Under the pieces are notes generated by a model. That model saw only the letters and a program-made list of their open reading frames with translations, was not told the origin of the DNA and did no database searches. A DNA stretch of 14,759 bases from NCBI GenBank assembly GCA_002414705.1, contig DIAL01000101.1, positions 43,948 to 58,706 of the forward strand, given 5' to 3'. Shown here piece by piece: positions 815 to 11,606 of this stretch (the stretch's first letter is position 1; each line of letters opens with the position of its first letter). The translations under genes and the position numbers were made by a program. The stretch is from Flavobacteriaceae bacterium UBA5079. GTDB lineage: Bacteria; Bacteroidota; Bacteroidia; Flavobacteriales; Flavobacteriaceae.

Positions 815-1264
815 ATGTTAACGTGGAAAGAAGTTATTAGTTTCAGTGTAAATGGAAATCCAACTCCAGATCGTCGTGTTGAAAAAACGGAAACGGAATG
901 GCGTGAAATCTTAACGGATGAGCAATTCAGGATTACCAGAAAAAAAGGAACTGAAATGGCTGGAACTGGAGCGTTATGCAGTGTTTATGATGCAGGAAAA
1001 TATAACTGTGTGTGTTGTAATACACCATTATTCGATTCGACAATAAAATTTGATTCCAGTTCAGGTTGGCCAAGTTTTACGCAGCCAATTAAAGAAAATG
1101 CTATTAAATATGAAAAAGATTCTACCTTCGGTATGGTGCGCGTTGAAGTAATGTGTAACACCTGTGATGCGCATTTAGGGCATGTGTTTCCTGATGGTCC
1201 GGAACCAAGTGGTTTGCGGTATTGCGTTAATTCAGAATCTATGGTGCTAGAATCGAAAAACTAA
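815..1264 (+). CDS. msrB: peptide-methionine (R)-S-oxide reductase MsrB
   Basis: A cytoplasmic repair enzyme that reduces the R epimer of methionine sulfoxide in proteins. The 149 residues cover the whole SelR fold. A structural zinc site is formed by Cys65 and Cys68 (CVCC) with Cys114 and Cys117 (CNTC), followed by the DAHLGHVFPDGP core and the catalytic Cys137 in RYCVNS. The usual resolving cysteine, as in the DSGCGWPSF segment of E. coli MsrB, is Ser83 here. Cys55 in GTGALC sits where other MsrBs (for example the Xanthomonas enzyme) place an alternative resolving cysteine. There is no signal peptide. The start is the ATG behind an AGAAAGG motif. It is the first gene of a collinear set of ten, so it probably carries the main operon promoter upstream, although no clear TAnnTTTG box was found there. 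Confidence 0.97.
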   Translation: MLTWKEVISFSVNGNPTPDRRVEKTETEWREILTDEQFRITRKKGTEMAGTGALCSVYDAGKYNCVCCNTPLFDSTIKFDSSSGWPSFTQPIKENAIKYEKDSTFGMVRVEVMCNTCDAHLGHVFPDGPEPSGLRYCVNSESMVLESKN

Positions 1265-1267
1265 ATT

Positions 1268-1276
1268 AGAGAAAGG
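1268..1276 (+). promoter_or_regulatory. Shine-Dalgarno-like site deciding the TTG start of the glutaredoxin-like gene
   Basis: AGAGAAAGG ends 7 bases before TTG 1284. It matches the motif before msrB in sequence and spacing, and supports TTG as the true start. Confidence 0.45.
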
Positions 1277-1283
1277 TATTACA

Positions 1284-1523
1284 TTGAAAAATATTACATT
1301 GTATGGTAGCTCAAACTGCCATAAAACAAATTATTATAAAACTTTTTTTGAATCTCGAAATCTCCAATTTACCTTTCAAGATGTGTTAAAGTACGAAAAT
1401 TTTGCTCTAGAATTACGTAACTTATACCCAAATAATGATTTGCATTTTCCTACAATTTTAATAGATGATAAACGGTTGCGAAACCCAAATGATAAGGAAC
1501 TTTTAAAATGGTTAAACAAATAA
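1284..1523 (+). CDS. glutaredoxin-like single-cysteine thioredoxin-fold protein
   Basis: A 79-residue protein with a glutaredoxin/NrdH-like pattern: a first strand (ITLYGSSNC), an active-site-like Cys12 in CHKT, and a cis-proline segment at Pro56 (HFPTILIDD). It closes with a helix ending KELLKWLNK. The second cysteine of the classic CxxC motif is Thr15, so it is a monothiol-type or variant glutaredoxin. Its electron donor and substrate are unknown. The start is TTG at 1284, backed by an AGAGAAAGG motif; no in-frame ATG gives a full first strand. It lies 19 bases after msrB and overlaps selO by 16 bases, which implies coupled translation. The context suggests it reduces the Msr enzymes or is handled by SelO. 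The fold is fairly sure, the role is inference. Confidence 0.75.
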   Translation: MKNITLYGSSNCHKTNYYKTFFESRNLQFTFQDVLKYENFALELRNLYPNNDLHFPTILIDDKRLRNPNDKELLKWLNK

Positions 1524-3082
1524 AAATTAATATCAACGATAGCTTTAATAAAGAACTGCCTGCAGATCCCATTTTAGAAAATACGAGAAGGCAGGTTACA
1601 AAAGCGTGTTTTTCGTTTGTTAAGCCGAAACAAACGGCAAATCCAGAAATGCTTCATGTGTCTCCAGATATGTTGGATAATTTAGGTTTAACGGAAGCTG
1701 ATGGTAAATCGGAAGCATTTTTAAATATTTTTACGGGTAATGAGGTGTTAGAAAATACCAAACCCTACGCTATGTGTTATGGTGGTCATCAGTTTGGCAG
1801 TTGGGCTGGGCAATTAGGTGATGGTCGCGCTATTAATTTGTTTGAAGTAGAACACGACAATACAAATTGGGCATTGCAATTAAAAGGAGCAGGTGAAACA
1901 CCGTATTCCAGAACTGCTGACGGATTAGCTGTATTGCGTTCATCTATTCGCGAGTATTTGTGTAGTGAAGCCATGCATCATTTAGGGGTTCCAACAACTA
2001 GAGCATTATCATTAGCATTATCTGGCGATGAAGTGTTGCGTGATGTGTTGTATAATGGGAATCCAGCTTATGAAAAAGGCGCTATTGTTTCACGAGTAGC
2101 ACCTAGTTTTTTGCGTTTTGGAAGTTTTGAAATTTTAGCCGCAAGGCAAGATATAGAAACTCTAAACACACTGGTAGATTATACCATAAAGCATCATTTT
2201 TCGTATTTAGGGAAGCCCTCAAAAGAAAGCTATGTCCAGTTTTTTGCTGAAGTTACAGAACGTACTTTACAAATGATTATTCATTGGCAACGTGTTGGTT
2301 TTGTTCATGGTGTAATGAATACGGATAATATGTCCATTTTAGGATTAACCATAGATTATGGACCTTATGGCTGGTTGGAAGATTTTAATTTTGGTTGGAC
2401 TCCTAACACAACGGATAGTCAACATAAACGTTATCGTTACGGCAATCAGCCTAACATTGGACTGTGGAATTTATACCAATTAGCCAATGCACTTTTTCCA
2501 TTAATTGAAGATGCTGAAAAATTAGAAGCTATACTTAATAAGTACAAAGTAGATTTTGAAACGCAATCTTTAAAAATGATGCGCAACAAATTAGGTTTAG
2601 AATTGGTTGATGATTTAGATACGCAACTCATTCAGAATTTAGAAGATAATTTGCAACTATCCGAAACGGATATGACTATTTTCTTTCGAAGTTTAGGGGA
2701 TTTCAAAAAAGAAAATCCAACAGATGGCATAAAAATAGTAGCTAACGCATTTTATCATCCAACAGAAATTTCGGATGCTATCAGACAAAATTGGAATAAC
2801 TGGTTTGTACGTTATGCATCTAGATTGCAAAAGGAAACAACTATAGATGAGGCAAGAAAAGAACAAATGAATACGGTAAACCCAAAATACGTATTACGAA
2901 ATTATATGGCACAATTAGCTATTGATGCTGCGGATAAGGGTGATTATAGCTTAATTGACGAATTATTTCAACTTTTAAAAAACCCGTATAATGAACAACC
3001 TCATAACGAAAAATGGTTTGTTAAACGTCCAGATTGGGCCAGACATAAAGTGGGATGTTCCATGTTGTCTTGTAGTTCATAA
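1508..3082 (+). CDS. selO: protein adenylyltransferase SelO (YdiU family)
   Basis: A pseudokinase-fold enzyme that transfers AMP from ATP to Ser, Thr or Tyr of target proteins, known from E. coli and Pseudomonas to act in oxidative stress. The 524 residues carry the family signature. Lys126 (QLKGAG), Glu149 (SIREY) and Arg203 (LRFGSFE) match the ATP-contact residues of Pseudomonas SelO. Asp273-Asn274 (NTDNMS) and Asp283 (TIDYGPYG) match its catalytic and Mg-binding residues. The C-terminus ends CSMLSCSS, where Cys522 occupies the selenocysteine position of vertebrate SelO and could form a redox-switching disulfide. It begins inside the glutaredoxin-like gene (16-base overlap). There is no signal peptide and the protein is complete. 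Confidence 0.96.
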   Translation: MVKQIKININDSFNKELPADPILENTRRQVTKACFSFVKPKQTANPEMLHVSPDMLDNLGLTEADGKSEAFLNIFTGNEVLENTKPYAMCYGGHQFGSWAGQLGDGRAINLFEVEHDNTNWALQLKGAGETPYSRTADGLAVLRSSIREYLCSEAMHHLGVPTTRALSLALSGDEVLRDVLYNGNPAYEKGAIVSRVAPSFLRFGSFEILAARQDIETLNTLVDYTIKHHFSYLGKPSKESYVQFFAEVTERTLQMIIHWQRVGFVHGVMNTDNMSILGLTIDYGPYGWLEDFNFGWTPNTTDSQHKRYRYGNQPNIGLWNLYQLANALFPLIEDAEKLEAILNKYKVDFETQSLKMMRNKLGLELVDDLDTQLIQNLEDNLQLSETDMTIFFRSLGDFKKENPTDGIKIVANAFYHPTEISDAIRQNWNNWFVRYASRLQKETTIDEARKEQMNTVNPKYVLRNYMAQLAIDAADKGDYSLIDELFQLLKNPYNEQPHNEKWFVKRPDWARHKVGCSMLSCSS

Positions 3083-3092
3083 TTAAAATTTT

Positions 3093-3099
3093 AGAAAGG
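3093..3099 (+). promoter_or_regulatory. Shine-Dalgarno-like site of the 57-residue gene
   Basis: AGAAAGG with 6 bases to the ATG at 3106. This is the third occurrence of the same motif in the cluster and supports translation of this short ORF. Confidence 0.45.
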
Positions 3100-3105
3100 T
3101 CAGAA

Positions 3106-3279
3106 ATGCTATTAGAGCTAATAAAACAATTACCAATTGGTTATTCTGAAGTATTATATAATGGTAAAAAGTATGGCGTAACAAGAAGTGATTTTAATAA
3201 CGGAAAAAGTTATAAAGTTTATGCTGAAGCGTTAGGAGGTAAAGATATTATCAGTTTAAACAATTATAAATTAATATAA
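3106..3279 (+). CDS. small conserved-looking protein of 57 residues, linked to Msr genes
   Basis: A short frame from ATG 3106 to TAA 3277-3279, fitting the 23-base to 12-base gaps between selO and msrA and preceded by an AGAAAGG motif. The product has a leucine-rich start (MLLELIKQLP), a central KKYGVTRSDFNNGKSYKVYA segment and an end DIISLNNYKLI. It has no cysteine, signal peptide or membrane helix, and is probably a small beta-rich cytoplasmic protein. From memory, slightly longer flavobacterial relatives (about 75-80 residues) are named 'peptide methionine sulfoxide reductase' without any Msr catalytic motif, so the name would come from its neighbourhood. If so, this copy may be shortened at the C-terminus. 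The biochemical function is unknown. Confidence 0.7.
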   Translation: MLLELIKQLPIGYSEVLYNGKKYGVTRSDFNNGKSYKVYAEALGGKDIISLNNYKLI

Positions 3280-3291
3280 ACACATAAAGTA

Positions 3292-3786
3292 ATGAGCAAT
3301 TATAAAAAAGCGTACATAGCAGGTGGCTGTTTTTGGGGCATGGAAGATTTATTCCGTACACAAAAAGGAATTAAAGATACTGAAGTAGGATACATTGGTG
3401 GTCAAAATGATAATCCAACCTATAAAAATCATCCAGGTCATGCCGAAGGTATTGAAATTACCTACGACGAAAACGAAACGTCATTTAAAAATATTTTAGA
3501 TTATTTCTTTCGAATTCACAACCCAACCACAGTGGATAGACAAGGAAATGATATAGGATCCAGTTACCGTTCGGCTATATTTTTTCAAAATGAAGACGAA
3601 AAAACCGAAGCAGAAAAAATGATCAATATTGTAAACGATTCCAATAAGTGGGAAGGGAAAGTAGCAACTACCTTAGAGCCTTATTCAACCTTTTGGGCTG
3701 CAGAACCAGAGCATCAGGATTATTTAGTGAGAAAACCTGATGGTTACACCTGCCATTTTGAACGTTTTAGTGATAGTTTTATTTAG
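3292..3786 (+). CDS. msrA: peptide-methionine (S)-S-oxide reductase MsrA
   Basis: Reduces the S epimer of methionine sulfoxide, free or in protein, in the cytoplasm. The 164 residues contain the catalytic Cys13 in GGCFWG. The supporting residues align in spacing with E. coli MsrA: Tyr44 (Tyr82), Glu52 in GHAEG (Glu94), Asp87 and Tyr92 in [10 protein letters not shown] (Asp129 and Tyr134). Cys154 in GYTCHFER is the likely resolving cysteine. It complements the stereospecificity of MsrB encoded at the head of the same operon. The ATG at 3292 lies just six residues before the first beta-strand ([10 protein letters not shown]), so little extension is missing. The stop is TAG, unlike its TAA-ending neighbours. 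Confidence 0.97.
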
Positions 3787-3812
3787 TAACATTATAAATT
3801 AATACCAAGCCT

Positions 3813-4097
3813 ATGAAAGCTATATGGAATAATCAAATAGTAGCAGAAAGTGATAATACAGTTGTTATTGAAAACAACCATTATTTCCCACATGATAGTA
3901 TAAATAAGGATTTTTTTAAACCAAGTAATACGCATACTAACTGTCCATGGAAAGGTGAAGCATCTTATTACACTTTAGTAGTGGATGGAAAAGAAAATGT
4001 AGATGCTGCTTGGTTTTATCCAGAAGTATCATTATTAGCAAAAGGGATTAAAAACCATGTGGCTTTCTGGAAAGGTGTGGAAGTGGTAAAGGATTAA
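3813..4097 (+). CDS. DUF427 domain protein
   Basis: A complete 94-residue DUF427 protein: an N-terminal MKAIWNNQIVAESDNTVVIE strand pair, the hallmark THTNCPWKGEASYY segment at about 41-54, and AAWFYPE at about 65-71. DUF427 is a small widespread beta-fold domain of unknown biochemical function. Members are often found near redox or stress genes. Cys44 in NCPWKG is the only cysteine and lies in the most conserved segment. The gene is 26 bases after msrA and 3 bases before the second MsrA paralogue, so it is part of the operon. No function beyond the family can be claimed. Confidence 0.88.
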   Translation: MKAIWNNQIVAESDNTVVIENNHYFPHDSINKDFFKPSNTHTNCPWKGEASYYTLVVDGKENVDAAWFYPEVSLLAKGIKNHVAFWKGVEVVKD

Positions 4098-4100
4098 TTC

Positions 4101-4613
4101 ATGAATTCCGATTCAAAAATAGCATTTGGAGGTGGCTGTCACTGGTGTACGGAAGCTGTATTTCAATCGGTAATTGGTGTTGAAAAAGTAGAGCAAGGCT
4201 ATGTGGCCTCATTAGGCGAAAACAATTCTTTTTCCGAAGCTGTTATAGTTCATTTTAATTCTAATCGGGTTAAACTAAATATATTAATTGAAATACATTT
4301 GTTAACACACAGGAGCACGTCCAATCATAGTATGCGTGATAAATATCGTTCGGCTGTTTATACGTTTTCAGATATGCAACATCAAGAGGTTAGTAGGCTT
4401 ATTGAAAGGTTTCAAATAGAATTCGACCAAAATTTGATAACACAAGTTTTGCCGTTTTCAGAATTTAAAGCCTCTCGAGATGCGATTCAGAATTACTATA
4501 AAAAGGATCCTGAAAAACCTTTTTGTGAAACCTTTATCAACCCAAAATTAAAGATGTTATTAGAACAGTTTTCAAATTATGCTAACCACGATGCTTTAAA
4601 TCATTTAAAATAA
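4101..4613 (+). CDS. divergent MsrA-family paralogue with a CHWC active-site motif
   Basis: A 170-residue MsrA-fold protein. The catalytic region reads [13 protein letters not shown], so Cys13 is kept but the usual Phe and Gly of GCFWG become His14 and Cys16, making a CxxC. The family's KYRSAVY segment is present at 81-87 (Tyr82), yet the Asp that normally lies five residues before this Tyr is Ser77. The Tyr/Gly-rich loop after the first helix is shortened. Glu46 ([10 protein letters not shown]) can stand for the catalytic Glu. The C-terminal [12 protein letters not shown] segment offers Cys142 as a resolving residue. It may be an MsrA with a changed recycling mechanism or substrate, distinct from the canonical MsrA upstream. 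It starts 3 bases after DUF427 and ends 1 base before the hydrolase-OsmC gene. Confidence 0.88.
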
Positions 4614-4614
4614 T

Positions 4615-5832
4615 ATGAAAAGTACTAAACTTGAAATTCAGAATAATAAAGGCTATAAATTGCAAGCATATTTCGAATTGCCTGCGAACCAAAAACCGAG
4701 TTATTACGCCATTTTTGCGCATTGTTTTACGTGTACAAGTACCTTAAATGCTGTGAAAAATATAAGCCGTGCGCTAACAAATCATGGTTTTGCTGTGGTA
4801 CGATTTGATTTTACAGGTTTAGGAAAAAGTGAAGGCGAATTTGCCGATAGTCACTTTTCTGCCAATGTATCCGATTTACTAGCTGTTAACACATATTTAG
4901 AAGAAAATTATAAAGCACCTAGTTTATTAGTTGGGCATTCTTTAGGTGGTGCAGCAGTAATAACGGCAGCTTCTAAACTAGAAAATATAAAAGCGGTAGC
5001 CACAATTGGTGCGCCTGCTACCGTTAATCATGTTACGAAATTATTTTCCCATGGGTTAGATGATGTTCAACAAAAAGGCGATGTGACCGTGAATATTGGT
5101 GGACGACCTTTTAAAATTAATCAAGAGTTTGTGGACGATTTTAGTAAAACTAATCTCCCAGAAATCACCAAAAATTTACGGAAGCCCTTACTCATCATGC
5201 ATGCGCCTTTTGATGCTATTGTAGGTATAGAAAATGCCGAAAAATTATATCAAAATGCGCACCATCCTAAAAGTTTTATCAGTTTGGATGGCGCAGACCA
5301 TTTGCTGTCTAACTCAAGAGATAGCATGTATGTAGGAAATATGATTGGGAATTGGGTTGAGCGTTTTTTTGATTCACAAGAAAACACCATGTTAGATACA
5401 GAAGGTGAACAATTAGTTGCTCATTTAAATTTAAGAGATGATAACTTTACAACGTCTATTCAAACCAAAAAGCATGCATTCATTGCAGACGAGCCAGATT
5501 CTGTAGGTGGTGATGATTTTGGGCCATCTCCTTACGATTATTTAAGTGCTGGATTGGCAGCTTGTACCGTTATGACACTGAAATTATATGCCGAACGTAA
5601 AAAGTGGGATTTACAGGAAGTATATGCTTATATTACGTATTCAAAAAAACACAGCGACGATTTAATGCTAAATATGGATAAACCAAAACGCATGGATCAT
5701 CTGAAAAAACGCTTAAAATTTGTAGGTAATTTAAATGAAGACCAGAAAAATCGTTTACAAGAAATTGCTTCAAAATGCCCAGTTCATAAAACCTTGCAAA
5801 GCGAAGTAATTATAGAAACCGAACGTGTATAA
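4615..5832 (+). CDS. bifunctional alpha/beta-hydrolase / OsmC-family fusion protein
   Basis: A 405-residue cytoplasmic fusion. Residues about 1-255 form an alpha/beta hydrolase with nucleophile Ser109 (VGHSLGG), acid Asp200 (APFDAIVG) and His229 (DGADHLL). A CFTC motif (Cys37, Cys40) sits near the expected oxyanion loop. Residues about 265-405 form an OsmC domain with the [16 protein letters not shown] segment (Cys317) and KCPVHKTL (Cys388), the two cysteines that reduce organic hydroperoxides in OsmC/Ohr proteins. This domain order is known in Bacteroidota and proteobacteria, but the hydrolase substrate is undefined; a peroxidised ester or thioester is one idea. The stop abuts the egtB ATG with no gap, which fits co-translation within the sulfur-redox operon. 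Confidence 0.93.
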
Positions 5833-6702
5833 ATGACAATAAAAGAACAATTCCATTACACTAGAAACCGATTTGTAGAAATTTGCAAACCGCTTAAAAC
5901 TGAAGATTATTCGGTGCAACCAGCCGTTTTTGTGTCACCACCCAAATGGCATTTGGCACATTCAACCTGGTTTTTTGAACAGTTTGTTTTGTGCAAATTT
6001 GTAAAGAACTATCAGGTTTTTGATGAAGATTTCGCATACCTTTTCAACAGTTATTACAACAATGCAGGAAAGCGTGTTTTGCGTCCAAATCGAGGTTTAA
6101 TGACGCGTCCATCTGTGAAAGATGTTTATAAATATCGGGATTATGTTGATTTGAAAATGTTGGCTTTTTTAAATGATAATCCATCACAAGAGGCGCTTGA
6201 TAGTGTTGAATTGGGTATCAACCATGAACAACAACATCAAGAATTGTTTTACTATGATATTACCTATATTTTAGGCAACCAGCCTACATTTCCAACCATC
6301 GCAAATAAAATTGAATTAGATGCTATTTCTTCTACTTCAGAATTTATAAAAATTCCTGAAGGGTTATATAATATTGGTCATAAAGGTGATCAGTTTTGTT
6401 ACGATAATGAACTTGGTAATCATAAGGTCTTTCTTCAAGAATTTGAAATTAGTAACCAGCTTGTTTCCAATAGAGAATATTTAGAGTTTATTGAAGCTGG
6501 AGGCTATCAAGATTTTAATCTATGGCATGCTGAAGGTTGGGATTTTATTCAAGAAAACAACATAAATGCACCTTTGTATTGGTATGAAGAGGAAGGTGTC
6601 TGGCATCAGTATACCTTAAATGGATTTGTGCCTATAGATGAAAATAAACCCGTAGCACATATTAGTTTTTACGAAGCTTTTGCCTATGCTGAATGGAAAT
6701 GA
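5833..6702 (+). CDS. egtB: EgtB N-terminal part: iron-binding DinB domain and first half of the FGE domain
   Basis: The 289-residue product made if TGA 6700 terminates. It keeps the three-His iron site (His43, His131, His135) and the first part of the FGE-like domain (IKIPEGLYNIG, FYEAFAYAEWK). It lacks the [13 protein letters not shown] and WQFSGIRL segments that complete the fold and the substrate pocket. On its own it should be inactive. Confidence 0.7.
   Translation: MTIKEQFHYTRNRFVEICKPLKTEDYSVQPAVFVSPPKWHLAHSTWFFEQFVLCKFVKNYQVFDEDFAYLFNSYYNNAGKRVLRPNRGLMTRPSVKDVYKYRDYVDLKMLAFLNDNPSQEALDSVELGINHEQQHQELFYYDITYILGNQPTFPTIANKIELDAISSTSEFIKIPEGLYNIGHKGDQFCYDNELGNHKVFLQEFEISNQLVSNREYLEFIEAGGYQDFNLWHAEGWDFIQENNINAPLYWYEEEGVWHQYTLNGFVPIDENKPVAHISFYEAFAYAEWK
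6700..6702 (+). other. in-frame TGA inside egtB
   Basis: The TGA replaces a codon expected to be Gly (one substitution from GGA) and is followed directly by an in-phase ATG (TGAATG). A second, out-of-phase ATG overlaps it (ATGA at 6699-6702), the arrangement that favours termination and re-initiation. No obvious SECIS-like hairpin follows. Confidence 0.8.
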
Positions 6703-6978
6703 ATGCGCTTGCCAACCGAGTTTGAATGGGAAGTTGCCTCTGAAAAAATTAATTTCGGTCAATTATGGGAATGGACTAACAGTGCCTATTTGCCATACCC
6801 AAACTTTAGTAAAGCTCCAGGTGCTTTGGGCGAGTATAATGGCAAATTTATGATAAATCAAATGGTGCTGCGTGGCGCTTCTGTTGCAACCGTTAAAAAC
6901 CATAGTAGAAATACGTATCGGAACTTTTTTCATCCAGACATGAGATGGCAATTTTCGGGAATAAGACTAGTAAAATAA
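6703..6978 (+). CDS. egtB: EgtB C-terminal part: second half of the FGE-like domain
   Basis: A 91-residue frame starting with the ATG right after the TGA. It holds the conserved EgtB segments [39 protein letters not shown] and RWQFSGIRL. It has no independent fold known to me. It would be made only by re-initiation or readthrough, and could in principle complement the N-terminal part as a separate chain. Confidence 0.55.
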
Positions 6979-6979
6979 T

Positions 6980-7912
6980 ATGAATAAAACGTTTGCAAAA
7001 GATGTGGTAGATGGTTTAACAGCAAAAGATAAATACCTGTCTTCTAAATATTTTTACGATACTAATGGAAGTCGCATATTTCAAGAAATTATGAATATGC
7101 CAGATTACTATTTGACCGATTCTGAATTTGAAATTTTATCGCTACAAGCCAAGCAAATTGTGGAAGCTTTGGCGTTTAATGAACCCTTCAATATTATTGA
7201 ATTAGGCGCAGGTGATGGTTTTAAAACCTTCAAATTGTTGGAGTATTTAGTTAAAGAAGGCGTTAATTTTAATTATGTACCTATAGATATTTCACAAGAA
7301 GCTATAGATATACTTTCAGAAAAATTACACGAACGCTTACCCAAATTAAGTATAAAGCCTCAAGTAGGCGATTATTTTGAAATTTTAAATAAAAAATTTC
7401 AGGGAAACACATCAAATCTATTACTCTTTTTAGGAAGTAATATTGGTAATTATCTAAAGGATGATGCCATTGCTTTATTAAAATTATTTCATAAAGTCAT
7501 GAATACTGGTGATAAACTTTTGATAGGAATGGATTTAAAGAAAAATCCTATCACAATTAAAAACGCGTATGATGATAAAGAAGGGATTACCAAACGGTTT
7601 AATATGAACTTATTAATTAGAATGAATAGGGAATTAGAAGCCGATTTTAAACTGGATGATTTTGATTTTTATTATAATCCTGAAACTGGACGTGTAAAAA
7701 GCTACATTGTTAGTTTAAAAAAACAAACGGTTTTGCTTAAAAATCTTAATAAAACAATTCAATTTAATCAGAATGAATTGATTTGGACCGAATTATCTAA
7801 AAAGTACAGTCTTTCTGAAATTGATAAATTAGCTGCTGTTTCTGGATTTCAATCTAAACAGCATTTTTTAGATTGTAAACACTATTTTACGGACAGTCTT
7901 TGGGAAAAATAA
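6980..7912 (+). CDS. egtD: L-histidine N(alpha)-methyltransferase EgtD
   Basis: Transfers three methyl groups from SAM to the amino group of histidine, giving hercynine, the substrate of EgtB. The 310 residues match the EgtD family. There is an N-terminal substrate region (YFYDTNGS at 24-31 and MPDYYLT at 40-46). The SAM-binding motif I is ELGAGDG (74-80), followed by PIDIS (101-105) and GSNIGNY with Asn154. Tyr197 lies in AYDD, and Glu271 and Ser273 in WTELSKKY. Asn154, Tyr197, Glu271 and Ser273 correspond to mycobacterial Asn166, Tyr206, Glu282 and Ser284, which bind histidine, so histidine rather than another amino acid is the likely substrate. The gene is intact and starts one base after the egtB stop. 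If egtB is truly dead, hercynine would be a dead-end product. Confidence 0.95.
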   Translation: MNKTFAKDVVDGLTAKDKYLSSKYFYDTNGSRIFQEIMNMPDYYLTDSEFEILSLQAKQIVEALAFNEPFNIIELGAGDGFKTFKLLEYLVKEGVNFNYVPIDISQEAIDILSEKLHERLPKLSIKPQVGDYFEILNKKFQGNTSNLLLFLGSNIGNYLKDDAIALLKLFHKVMNTGDKLLIGMDLKKNPITIKNAYDDKEGITKRFNMNLLIRMNRELEADFKLDDFDFYYNPETGRVKSYIVSLKKQTVLLKNLNKTIQFNQNELIWTELSKKYSLSEIDKLAAVSGFQSKQHFLDCKHYFTDSLWEK

Positions 7913-7931
7913 TACAGACACGAATAATTTA

Positions 7932-10900
7932 ATGAATACACTAAATAAATTGTTTTTTTGCTGTCTTATTTTGATAGCTTTTTTTGGATGTGCCACGTTT
8001 AAAACGCAGTATAAAGAACCGTATGTTCCAATAACAGAATCAGAAAACCCTATTGCGCATACTTTTTATTTAATAGGTGATGCTGGAAATTCGCCAATTG
8101 GCACAAAAACCAATGCGCTAAAAGCATTCGAGTCTGCTTTAAATAAAGCAGATGCTAATAGTTCTGCATTTTTTTTAGGAGATAATATTTATCCAAAAGG
8201 ATTACCAGAAAAGGGAGAAAAAGGTTATGCCTTTGCAAAACACCAGTTGGATGTTCAAATAGATGCCGTTAAAAATTTTAAGGGCAAAACCATTTTTATA
8301 CCCGGAAATCATGATTGGTATTCAGATGGTTTAAAAGGTTTGGAGCGTCAAGAGGATTATATTGATGATGTTTTAGGTAAAAACTCATTCTTGCCAGAAA
8401 ACGGTTGTCCAATAGAAAATGAAACTATAACAGATAATATTGAGTTGATTTATGTGGATGCTAAATGGTATATGGCTAATTGGGATAAGCATCCAACTAT
8501 AAATGATAAATGTGATATAAAAACACGTGATGCCTTTTTAGATGAGTTTGAAAGTCGCATAAAAAAAGTACGAGGAAAAACAACAATTGTTGCTATGCAT
8601 CATCCTATTTTTGCAAATGGGCCACATGGTGGACAATATTCATTTATGGACCACATGAAACCGTTCCCTGTTTTAGGAACCCTTAAAAACATTTTAAGGA
8701 AAACCACAGGCGTAAGTCCAGAGGATATCCAGAATAAACGGTATAATGATTTTAGAAAACGCATAATAACACTAGCTAAAGAAAATGAGCATGTTATTTT
8801 TGTGTCTGGTCACGATCATAATTTACAGTATTTAGTTCAAGATAATTTGGTGCAAATAATTAGTGGTTCAGGCTCAAAATCCACTGCTACAAGAAATGTG
8901 GGTAGTGGTTTGTTTTCCTCTAGTGAGCCAGGATTTACGCGTCTGGATGTGTTTAAAGACGGGTCGTCTCAAGTTCGTTTCATAGCAGCAAAAAAAGAAA
9001 CTATTTTGTTTTCCAAAGAAGTCTTTCCAAAACAAAAACAAGCATCCCGAAATTATCCTGAAAATGTTCCGCAAACGGTTCTAGCTTCTATTTATACAGA
9101 TAAAGAAACACAGAAAAGTAATTTTTATAATTTTCTTTGGGGAAACCGATATGCACAAGATTTTAGCATGGAAATTGAGGCGAAAACCGTAATGTTAGAC
9201 ACGCTTTATGGTGGATTAAAACCTATTAGAAAAGGTGGTGGTACACAGTCAAATTCCTTGCGGTTGGCAGATTCTACAGGTCGTGAATACGTAATGCGTG
9301 GTTTACGAAAAAATGCCTTAAATTATATTCAAGCATTCGCATTTAAAGATCAATTTGTAGAAGGTCAGTTTGATGATACCGTTGCCGAGGAATTAATTTT
9401 TCATGTTTTTACAGGTTCTCATCCGTATGCACCATTTGTAACAGCAACTTTGTCTGATGCGGTAGGCGTTTTGCATACCAACCCTGTGTTGTATTATGTG
9501 CCACATCAAAAAGCAATTGCCCCATATAATGACACCTTTGGTAATGAATTATATATGATAGAGGAACATGCTGGTGATGATCATGGTTATCAAAAAAGTT
9601 TTGCCTTTTCAAATGAGTTGATTGGAACGGATGATATGCTGGCTGAAATTCGCTCGGATGAAGATATTATAATTGATGAAACAGCTTATGTTCGTGCCCG
9701 AATCTTTGACATGCTTATTGGAGATTGGGACAGACATCAAGACCAATGGCGTTGGGCTAAAACTAAAAAAGATGGTCAAACAGTTTATGTGCCTGTTCCA
9801 AGAGATCGCGACCAAGCTTTTTCTAATATGAATGATGGGTTTTTGTTAGGAATTGGATCCCGAATTATTCCTGCTGCAAGATTATTACAAGGTTATGAAA
9901 ATGATTTACGCAGTCCTAAATGGTTTAATCTAGAACCCTATCCATTGGACGTAGCATTAATTAGTGAATCTGATAAATCTGTTTGGGATGCGCAAGTAAA
10001 CATAATAACCAGTCAATTATCTGATGCGGTTATTGAGGAAGCATTTCAAAATATACCTAAAGAGTTACAAGGAAAAAACATTGAAGATATTAAAGCCAAG
10101 TTGCGTGCTAGACGCGGAAACCTACAAGGAATTTCTGATGTATATTTTGCGCATGTAAATAAGTTTGCGGTTATAAAAGGAACCGATAAAGATGATTATT
10201 TTGACATTGAACGCTTACCAAATGGCAAAACAAAAGTCATTGCATACCGGATTAAAGGTGGTGAAAAAAGCGATGTATTTCATCAGCGTATTTATGATAA
10301 AAAAGTAACTAATGAAATATGGATTTACGCATTAGATGATGACGATGTGTTTTATGTTCATGGTGAAGGGAATAATTATATAAAATTGCGTTTAGTTGGT
10401 GGGCAAAATAATGATGTTTATAACATTGAAAATGGAAAGAAAACACATTTATATGATTATGAGGCAAAAAAAAACACCTTCCAAACTTCTGAAGGAAAAC
10501 CGCATCTGACCAATAATTATGATATTAATTCGTATAATTATTTAAAGGTAAAAAACAATGCAAATCAGCTTATTCCTATTGTTGGTTATAACCCAGATGA
10601 TGGTGTTAAATTAGGTTTAAAAAATACCTATACGGTTTACGGTTTTAATCGAAACCCTTTTACCTCACAGCATAATATGTCTGCAGCTTATTATTTTGCA
10701 ACAAATGGTTTCGACTTATCTTATAATGGTGAATTTGCAAATGTACTTGGTGATATTAATTTAGGACTTGACCTAATTTTTACAAGCCCAAATTACAGTA
10801 TTAATTTCTTTGGTTATGGTAATGAAACGGTAAATCCAAATGCCGAAAATGAGGATATATTCAACAGAGACTACAACCGAGTTAAATTACGGACTTTGCG

Positions 10901-11606
10901 TTTTGCGCCATCATTAATTTATAAAGGTTTTCTAGATGGAGAATTTAAATTAGGTTTGGCTTATGAAACTATAGAGGTGGAGGAAACTCAAGGACGTTTT
11001 ATAAACAATTATTATTTATCTAACTTAATTGAAAACAGCAATTCCTTTATTGGTGCATTTACGTCTTATCATTTTCAAAACAGAAATAATAAAGCCTATC
11101 CGTCTGTTGGTTTTGAAACCAATTTAAAAATAGGCTTTCGCACTAATATAGATAACTCCAAGAGTATGGGATACATTATTCCCGATATCAGTTTTGATTA
11201 TCAATTAGAGCCAACCGGTAAACTAGTTTTGGCAACCAAATTAAAAGGTCACCTAACTTTAGGTGATGATTTTGAATTTTATCAAGCTGCTTCAATTGGT
11301 GCCAGCGATGGTCTTCGTGGATATAGAAATCAACGCTTTACAGGTAAAAACTCCTATTATCAATTAACGGACTTACGCTACATGTTTAGTAAATTAAAAA
11401 CAGGAATTCTGCCTATTAATTTAGGCGTTTATTCAGGTGTAGATTATGGACGTGTTTGGCTAAAGGATGATCCTTCCAAAAAATGGCATAACTCTTATGG
11501 TGGTGGATTCTTGTTAATGGCAGCAGAAGTGTTCACTGGAAATTTCTCCTTGTTTCATAGCGATGATGGCTTACGTTTTGCATTTGGCTTAGGCTTAAAT
11601 TTTTAA
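7932..11606 (+). CDS. outer-membrane fusion: metallophosphatase, kinase-like segment and Omp85-type barrel
   Basis: A 1224-residue exported protein. Residues 1-20 look like a signal peptide ending FFGC, a loose lipobox with Cys20. Residues about 43-350 are a calcineurin-like metallophosphatase: GDAGN (49-53), GDNIYP (83-88), GNHDW (125-129), MHHP (222-225) and GHDHN (293-297). Residues about 440-650 hold a kinase-like series: YVMRGLRKN, AEEL, YMIEEHAG, then DMLIGDWDRHQDQW (593-606) and PRDRDQAF (623-630). Residues about 750-835 repeat short DDxF/NDxY turns. Residues about 880-1224 form a beta-barrel with LRGYRNQRF (1128-1136), like the VRGF/Y loop-6 motif of Omp85 proteins, ending in Phe. The enzyme domains would face the periplasm or the surface. 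The substrate is unknown. It follows egtD by 19 bases and may be the operon's last gene. Confidence 0.88.
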   Translation: MNTLNKLFFCCLILIAFFGCATFKTQYKEPYVPITESENPIAHTFYLIGDAGNSPIGTKTNALKAFESALNKADANSSAFFLGDNIYPKGLPEKGEKGYAFAKHQLDVQIDAVKNFKGKTIFIPGNHDWYSDGLKGLERQEDYIDDVLGKNSFLPENGCPIENETITDNIELIYVDAKWYMANWDKHPTINDKCDIKTRDAFLDEFESRIKKVRGKTTIVAMHHPIFANGPHGGQYSFMDHMKPFPVLGTLKNILRKTTGVSPEDIQNKRYNDFRKRIITLAKENEHVIFVSGHDHNLQYLVQDNLVQIISGSGSKSTATRNVGSGLFSSSEPGFTRLDVFKDGSSQVRFIAAKKETILFSKEVFPKQKQASRNYPENVPQTVLASIYTDKETQKSNFYNFLWGNRYAQDFSMEIEAKTVMLDTLYGGLKPIRKGGGTQSNSLRLADSTGREYVMRGLRKNALNYIQAFAFKDQFVEGQFDDTVAEELIFHVFTGSHPYAPFVTATLSDAVGVLHTNPVLYYVPHQKAIAPYNDTFGNELYMIEEHAGDDHGYQKSFAFSNELIGTDDMLAEIRSDEDIIIDETAYVRARIFDMLIGDWDRHQDQWRWAKTKKDGQTVYVPVPRDRDQAFSNMNDGFLLGIGSRIIPAARLLQGYENDLRSPKWFNLEPYPLDVALISESDKSVWDAQVNIITSQLSDAVIEEAFQNIPKELQGKNIEDIKAKLRARRGNLQGISDVYFAHVNKFAVIKGTDKDDYFDIERLPNGKTKVIAYRIKGGEKSDVFHQRIYDKKVTNEIWIYALDDDDVFYVHGEGNNYIKLRLVGGQNNDVYNIENGKKTHLYDYEAKKNTFQTSEGKPHLTNNYDINSYNYLKVKNNANQLIPIVGYNPDDGVKLGLKNTYTVYGFNRNPFTSQHNMSAAYYFATNGFDLSYNGEFANVLGDINLGLDLIFTSPNYSINFFGYGNETVNPNAENEDIFNRDYNRVKLRTLRFAPSLIYKGFLDGEFKLGLAYETIEVEETQGRFINNYYLSNLIENSNSFIGAFTSYHFQNRNNKAYPSVGFETNLKIGFRTNIDNSKSMGYIIPDISFDYQLEPTGKLVLATKLKGHLTLGDDFEFYQAASIGASDGLRGYRNQRFTGKNSYYQLTDLRYMFSKLKTGILPINLGVYSGVDYGRVWLKDDPSKKWHNSYGGGFLLMAAEVFTGNFSLFHSDDGLRFAFGLGLNF

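Follow-up and report, generated by a model that had tools for sequence, protein, structure and literature searches.

Does the single TGA that interrupts egtB in Flavobacteriaceae bacterium UBA5079 reflect a mutation, a wrong base in the assembly, a recoded codon, or a sulfoxide synthase made as two chains? We addressed this question in a 14,759-nucleotide stretch of contig DIAL01000101.1 (hereafter the window), in which the gene and its immediate neighbors are arranged as follows.

4615-5832, forward strand: alpha/beta hydrolase-OsmC fusion, directly upstream of egtB
5833-6702, forward strand: egtB, first piece (289 codons plus TGA), with a DinB-like domain and the first part of an FGE-like domain
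6700-6702, forward strand: TGA stop in frame at codon 290, where the intact relatives examined have a sense residue
6703-6978, forward strand: egtB, second piece (91 codons from an in-frame ATG), with the last part of the FGE-like domain
6980-7912, forward strand: egtD, histidine methyltransferase (open frame, 310 codons), with a missing stretch near 7667-7675

The first-pass annotation of this DNA, made from the sequence without database searches, had described an EgtB gene carrying an in-frame TGA, with two fragments in one phase and no base missing. Both parts of this description were borne out: the gene matches the EgtB model TIGR03440 and the corresponding Pfam domains, and the TGA alone separates 5833-6702 from 6703-6978, with the 91-codon open reading frame (ORF) starting at the codon directly after the TGA in the same phase as the 289-codon ORF. 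Taken by itself, the first piece passes TIGR03440 (365.1 bits for a cut-off of 360) and includes DinB_2 and the first part of FGE-sulfatase, while the second piece matches the end of the model at a score under the cut-off (144.9 bits) and holds the last part of FGE-sulfatase. Solved EgtBs are single chains, whereas the window's frame is not an uninterrupted one, being cut by the TGA at 6700-6702. The WQFSGIRL end and the iron-ligand positions H43, H131, and H135 are retained, as had been noted earlier, and the three histidines are invariant among the 120 nearest homologues; their role as iron ligands is known from solved EgtBs and is carried over here by alignment. The best sequence matches (E ~1e-110) were obtained to the EgtB of Chloracidobacterium thermophilum, a type II sulfoxide synthase (PDB 6qki, 6qkj, 6o6l, and 8qf6), and by offset in the sequence alignment the three histidines fall on residues 62, 153, and 157 of 8qf6. 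Likewise by offset, Y74-Y75 align with residues 93-94 of 8qf6, the type II catalytic Tyr-Tyr pair, and Tyr93 and Tyr94 are described as essential in the C. thermophilum enzyme (PMC10903977). The same enzyme ranked first in a Foldseek fold search with a structure model of P0001, an intact near-identical protein introduced below; since the TM-scores of the EgtB matches were poor (about 0.37), they add little to the sequence match. This model, built from 25 sequences, has a mean pLDDT of 64 with residues 308-374 under 50, and was drawn on for the local helices at 279-305 only. Apart from the stop, the window's enzyme is, judged from these alignments, an ordinary type II EgtB (hercynine/cysteine sulfoxide synthase).

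We then asked how far the stop extends among relatives, a comparison that the first-pass annotation had called for. All five other genomes of the genus (Bizionia, going by its named members in the protein database) carry an unbroken 381-codon egtB frame (83-91% identical), and the named Bizionia EgtB proteins, 78-91% identical to the window's reading, differ from it in lacking the stop. At the family level, a sample of 299 genomes, among them the genome of the window and that of one congener out of the five, yielded 128 full-length single-stretch egtB places (counted by hand, with one genome contributing two), of which the window's alone contains a stop (0 of the 127 others); one further family genome has an egtB match in two stretches, also free of stops. 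The closest sequence, P0001, is a 381-residue protein from the protein database that agrees with the window's reading at every one of the 380 other residues and has Gly at 290. Three member sequences and two contigs are listed for it, the longer contig spanning 113,738 bases, for 92,440 in the window's own. P0002, with one further difference beyond P0001, and P0003, 96% identical, are likewise intact with Gly at 290. Among the close relatives compared, the stop is thus, at the level of sequence, private to this assembly. A split gene conserved among close relatives was ruled out as a candidate, since the stop is absent from all five congeners and from the other 127 full-length family places. 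The 91-residue piece is itself present in the protein database as an identical entry (P0121; three member sequences and one contig of 92,440 bases, as the window's); a 289-residue EgtB was not found among the best 120 protein-database relatives listed, possibly having been merged into a cluster. A literature search found no paper on an egtB nonsense mutation and ergothioneine.

The codon affected is less constrained than had been thought. The TGA had been placed exactly at a conserved glycine, and Gly is indeed the residue found in P0001, P0002, and P0003, but the five congeners have Gln and just 42 of the 120 nearest homologues have Gly, the remainder having Gln (47), Lys (12), Asn (10), His (3), Asp (3), or single other residues. 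Residue 290 is, on this alignment, a variable position and no strictly conserved Gly. The Met directly after the TGA, on the other hand, is Met in 104 of the same 120 homologues, as an ordinary residue of the intact enzyme; as far as this distribution indicates, it is inherited, and was not gained as a start.

The age of the stop could be gauged from the changes around it. Over the 91 codons after the stop, comparison with the three closest congeners revealed 2 non-synonymous differences for 30, 31, and 33 synonymous ones, and comparison with the other two congeners 6 and 9 non-synonymous differences for 34 synonymous ones each. So few non-synonymous changes next to so many synonymous ones indicate that the piece after the stop was under selection until very recently. 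In addition, P0001, which equals the window's protein but for the stop, agrees with the other 118 homologues wherever conservation among these reaches 95% or more, while three of seven other proteins submitted to the same test depart at one or two positions. egtB was therefore under strong purifying selection for nearly the whole of its lineage, and the stop is either very young or an error. An old pseudogene was ruled out, given this ratio of changes and the identity in amino acids to P0001 save for the stop. Hence, within the options that the first-pass annotation had left side by side, a very recent nonsense mutation and a sequencing or assembly error are the two favored by the near-identical intact copies and by the ratio of changes, and the existence of near-identical public copies without the stop makes either more likely than a new two-part enzyme.

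Between these two, we consider it probable that an ordinary type II egtB acquired a nonsense mutation very recently. Recent nonsense alleles and young pseudogenes in draft genomes show one private in-frame stop in an otherwise unblemished gene, and the window's egtB, with relatives that lack the stop, has the same appearance. It differs from ordinary nonsense alleles in that the codon following its stop is an ATG, at an operon-like zero-base gap, and some translation of the second piece is possible for that reason. Under this reading, ribosomes reaching the TGA at codon 290 would mostly terminate after residue 289, and the resulting 289-residue product, without the last quarter of the protein, would presumably provide little or no sulfoxide synthase, while a small amount of the 91-residue piece may arise by re-initiation at the next codon. 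Correct bases, a non-functional allele, and ongoing decay are inferences on our part.

A second lesion in the adjoining gene bears on this reading. The first-pass annotation had taken egtD to be intact, which holds for its frame, but two residues are absent that 125 of the 126 other EgtDs compared keep, the remaining one being shorter by one residue. This set combines 106 sequences from 108 fetched loci with 20 database proteins, some of which may share species, and one of the aligned locus sequences contains a stop. The window's EgtD is 310 residues long and the 20 database relatives are listed at 312-313, the loss lying within FYCYYNPETG with an exact placing that is ambiguous. The underlying DNA change is a six-base loss that preserves the frame, located where short direct repeats were seen by eye, as replication slippage would leave. 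When nine window genes were compared to those of up to five congeners, this deletion was the only internal indel private to the window's genome; a private insertion in TesB of congener G002 indicates that private indels occur in congeners also. The protein matches PF10017 (Methyltransf_33; 314.8 bits for a cut-off of 23), and its score under the TIGR03438 cut-off (278.6 vs 290.9 bits) is shared by the five tested relatives without the deletion, which also fall below it (284-288). Two unusual lesions, one in each of two genes of the same pathway, fit early pathway decay without proving it, and the pathway may be starting to decay in the window's strain. The EgtD deletion may, nonetheless, also exist in strains with an intact EgtB.

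The strongest competitor to a recent nonsense allele is a sequencing or assembly error, in which one wrong base would hide an intact EgtB like P0001 in the living strain; we regard this as a realistic though unlikely explanation. The stop is the sole residue difference between the window and P0001, egtB displays no other sign of relaxed selection, and the lack of a second lesion within it is compatible with an error and a young mutation alike. P0001 could moreover stem from a separate assembly of this sample, in which case an error or mixed strains would be favored. The draft genome is also a gapped one, divided into 173 contigs, with a completeness of 88% and a contamination of 0.12. The window's contig contains 16 runs of N, and the window is exactly the stretch between two of these runs. 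Against an error, we surveyed lesions along the contig using 90 ORFs from a 100-kb stretch of a one-contig congener, considering as testable those with an identity of 60% or more and a coverage of 80% or more. Of the 40 testable ORFs, seven showed a stop or a change of frame, five of them at N runs and one at a slightly earlier natural end, which leaves egtB as the only true internal lesion in 40 testable genes. The reverse survey (36 of 66 testable) identified one gene with a stop, close to its natural end. Single-base lesions are therefore rare on this contig, and base quality there looks good. The six-base in-frame deletion in the adjoining egtD, in turn, would require a second error of a different kind.

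Much less probable is a working two-chain EgtB, in which translation would stop at the TGA and re-initiate at the next ATG, and the 289- and 91-residue chains would assemble. The first-pass annotation had proposed re-initiation at the ATG following the TGA and had taken an ATGA overlap to make it plausible. The ATG of this overlap (6699-6701) is out of frame and opens an ORF of 8 codons (MNALANRV, then a stop), so that this part of the proposal falls away; re-initiation itself retains a candidate start in the in-frame ATG at 6703-6705, directly after the TGA. The zero-gap TGA-ATG at 6702/6703 resembles the native junctions of the same operon, where gaps of 3, 1, 0, and 1 bases were found at 4097/4101, 4613/4615, 5832/5833, and 6978/6980. 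The third of these, where the TAA of the hydrolase-OsmC gene abuts the egtB ATG, has the same layout as the TGA-ATG. Some re-initiation is plausible because native neighbors are joined this closely. Both egtB pieces are conserved in sequence, and in the modest-confidence P0001 model residue 290 lies between two predicted helices (279-288 and 296-305). The break nevertheless cuts a single folding domain, and a very young stop accounts equally well for the conservation of both pieces. The two-chain arrangement is in sum mechanically possible, as had been suggested; as an evolved arrangement it is unsupported, with a split found in neither the five congeners nor the 127 other full-length family places and with a Met that was inherited. 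A newly born split sulfoxide synthase, relying on stop-start re-initiation at the TGA-ATG before any compensating change, is in our view slightly less probable still.

Short C-terminal pieces comparable to the one in the window exist elsewhere: among the 120 relatives listed for the 91-residue piece, 25 (counting the window's) share its initial Met, which precedes RLPT. Leaving the window's aside, 22 of these are on contigs of less than 5,000 bases, one is on a contig of 9,516 bases, and one is on a contig of 823,600 bases, and further short EgtB pieces on long contigs start at other residues. Because the Met after the stop is inherited, the shared start of these pieces may just mark the first usable start, and the pieces themselves may result from truncation at contig ends, or from broken genes starting at a conserved Met. 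The two on the longer contigs, P0214 (823,600 bases) and P0139 (9,516 bases), are 91-residue EgtB C-terminal pieces and possibly represent other interrupted egtB genes. In more distant relatives, recurrent splitting of egtB is conceivable.

Readthrough or recoding of the TGA, by selenocysteine or a near-cognate tRNA, would yield a full-length EgtB, and of the explanations weighed it is the one we find hardest to credit, even though the frame past the TGA is open and conserved. No match to SelA was found in the genome, which is no proof of absence at 88% completeness, and none of 8 matches to the tRNA-Sec family exceeded the gathering score (this family gives matches in 14 of 14 controls, above the cut-off in 5 only). 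At 290, intact relatives most often have Gln, Gly, Lys, or Asn, and two other contig genes that end in TGA do so where their orthologues end. Stop codons of the window's genome, counted over 37 orthologue pairs from the contig, were TAA (29), TAG (5), and TGA (3). prfB is present, and its CTTTGAC shift site (locus L129, about 1500-1545), after which the other frame continues, is the programmed frameshift known for this gene; the in-frame TAA that the search had reported inside prfB is no oddity for that reason. The TGA is, by these indications, an ordinary stop in the window's genome, and the readthrough option raised by the first-pass annotation was set aside, a recoded TGA being ruled out as unlikely.

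The significance of a very recent nonsense allele, our preferred reading, relates to its operon setting. egtB and egtD close a row of redox-repair genes at 815-7912, consisting of msrB, a small glutaredoxin-like ORF, selO, msrA, a DUF427 gene, a second msrA-like gene (scoring under the MsrA model cut-off), the hydrolase-OsmC fusion, egtB, and egtD. The five congeners preserve most of this gene order, and egtB and egtD are side by side in all five. Exceptions are the small glutaredoxin-like ORF, not found in congeners G002 and G005, and two genes in G002, where no DUF427 gene was found and the second msrA-like gene has only a 28% match elsewhere. If the stop is real, one strain would have lost, or begun to lose, ergothioneine synthesis, in a genus in which five congeners keep egtB-egtD within a redox operon; if it is an error, it would serve as a warning against taking single stops in draft genomes for split genes. 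Either outcome would be ordinary, and a surprise would come only with proof of a working two-chain enzyme.

Three further observations concern the surroundings of these genes. A scan for promoters and terminators returned counts near the shuffled background (15 vs 12.9 in shuffles, and 1 vs 1.1, respectively). In congener G003, the DUF427 gene is frameshifted, with two tblastn pieces in different frames (locus L141, about 9613-9889). Beyond egtD, positions 7932-11606 of the window encode a 1224-residue protein that combines a calcineurin-like phosphoesterase domain with an Omp85-like end, the latter based on an Omp85-family match under the cut-off.
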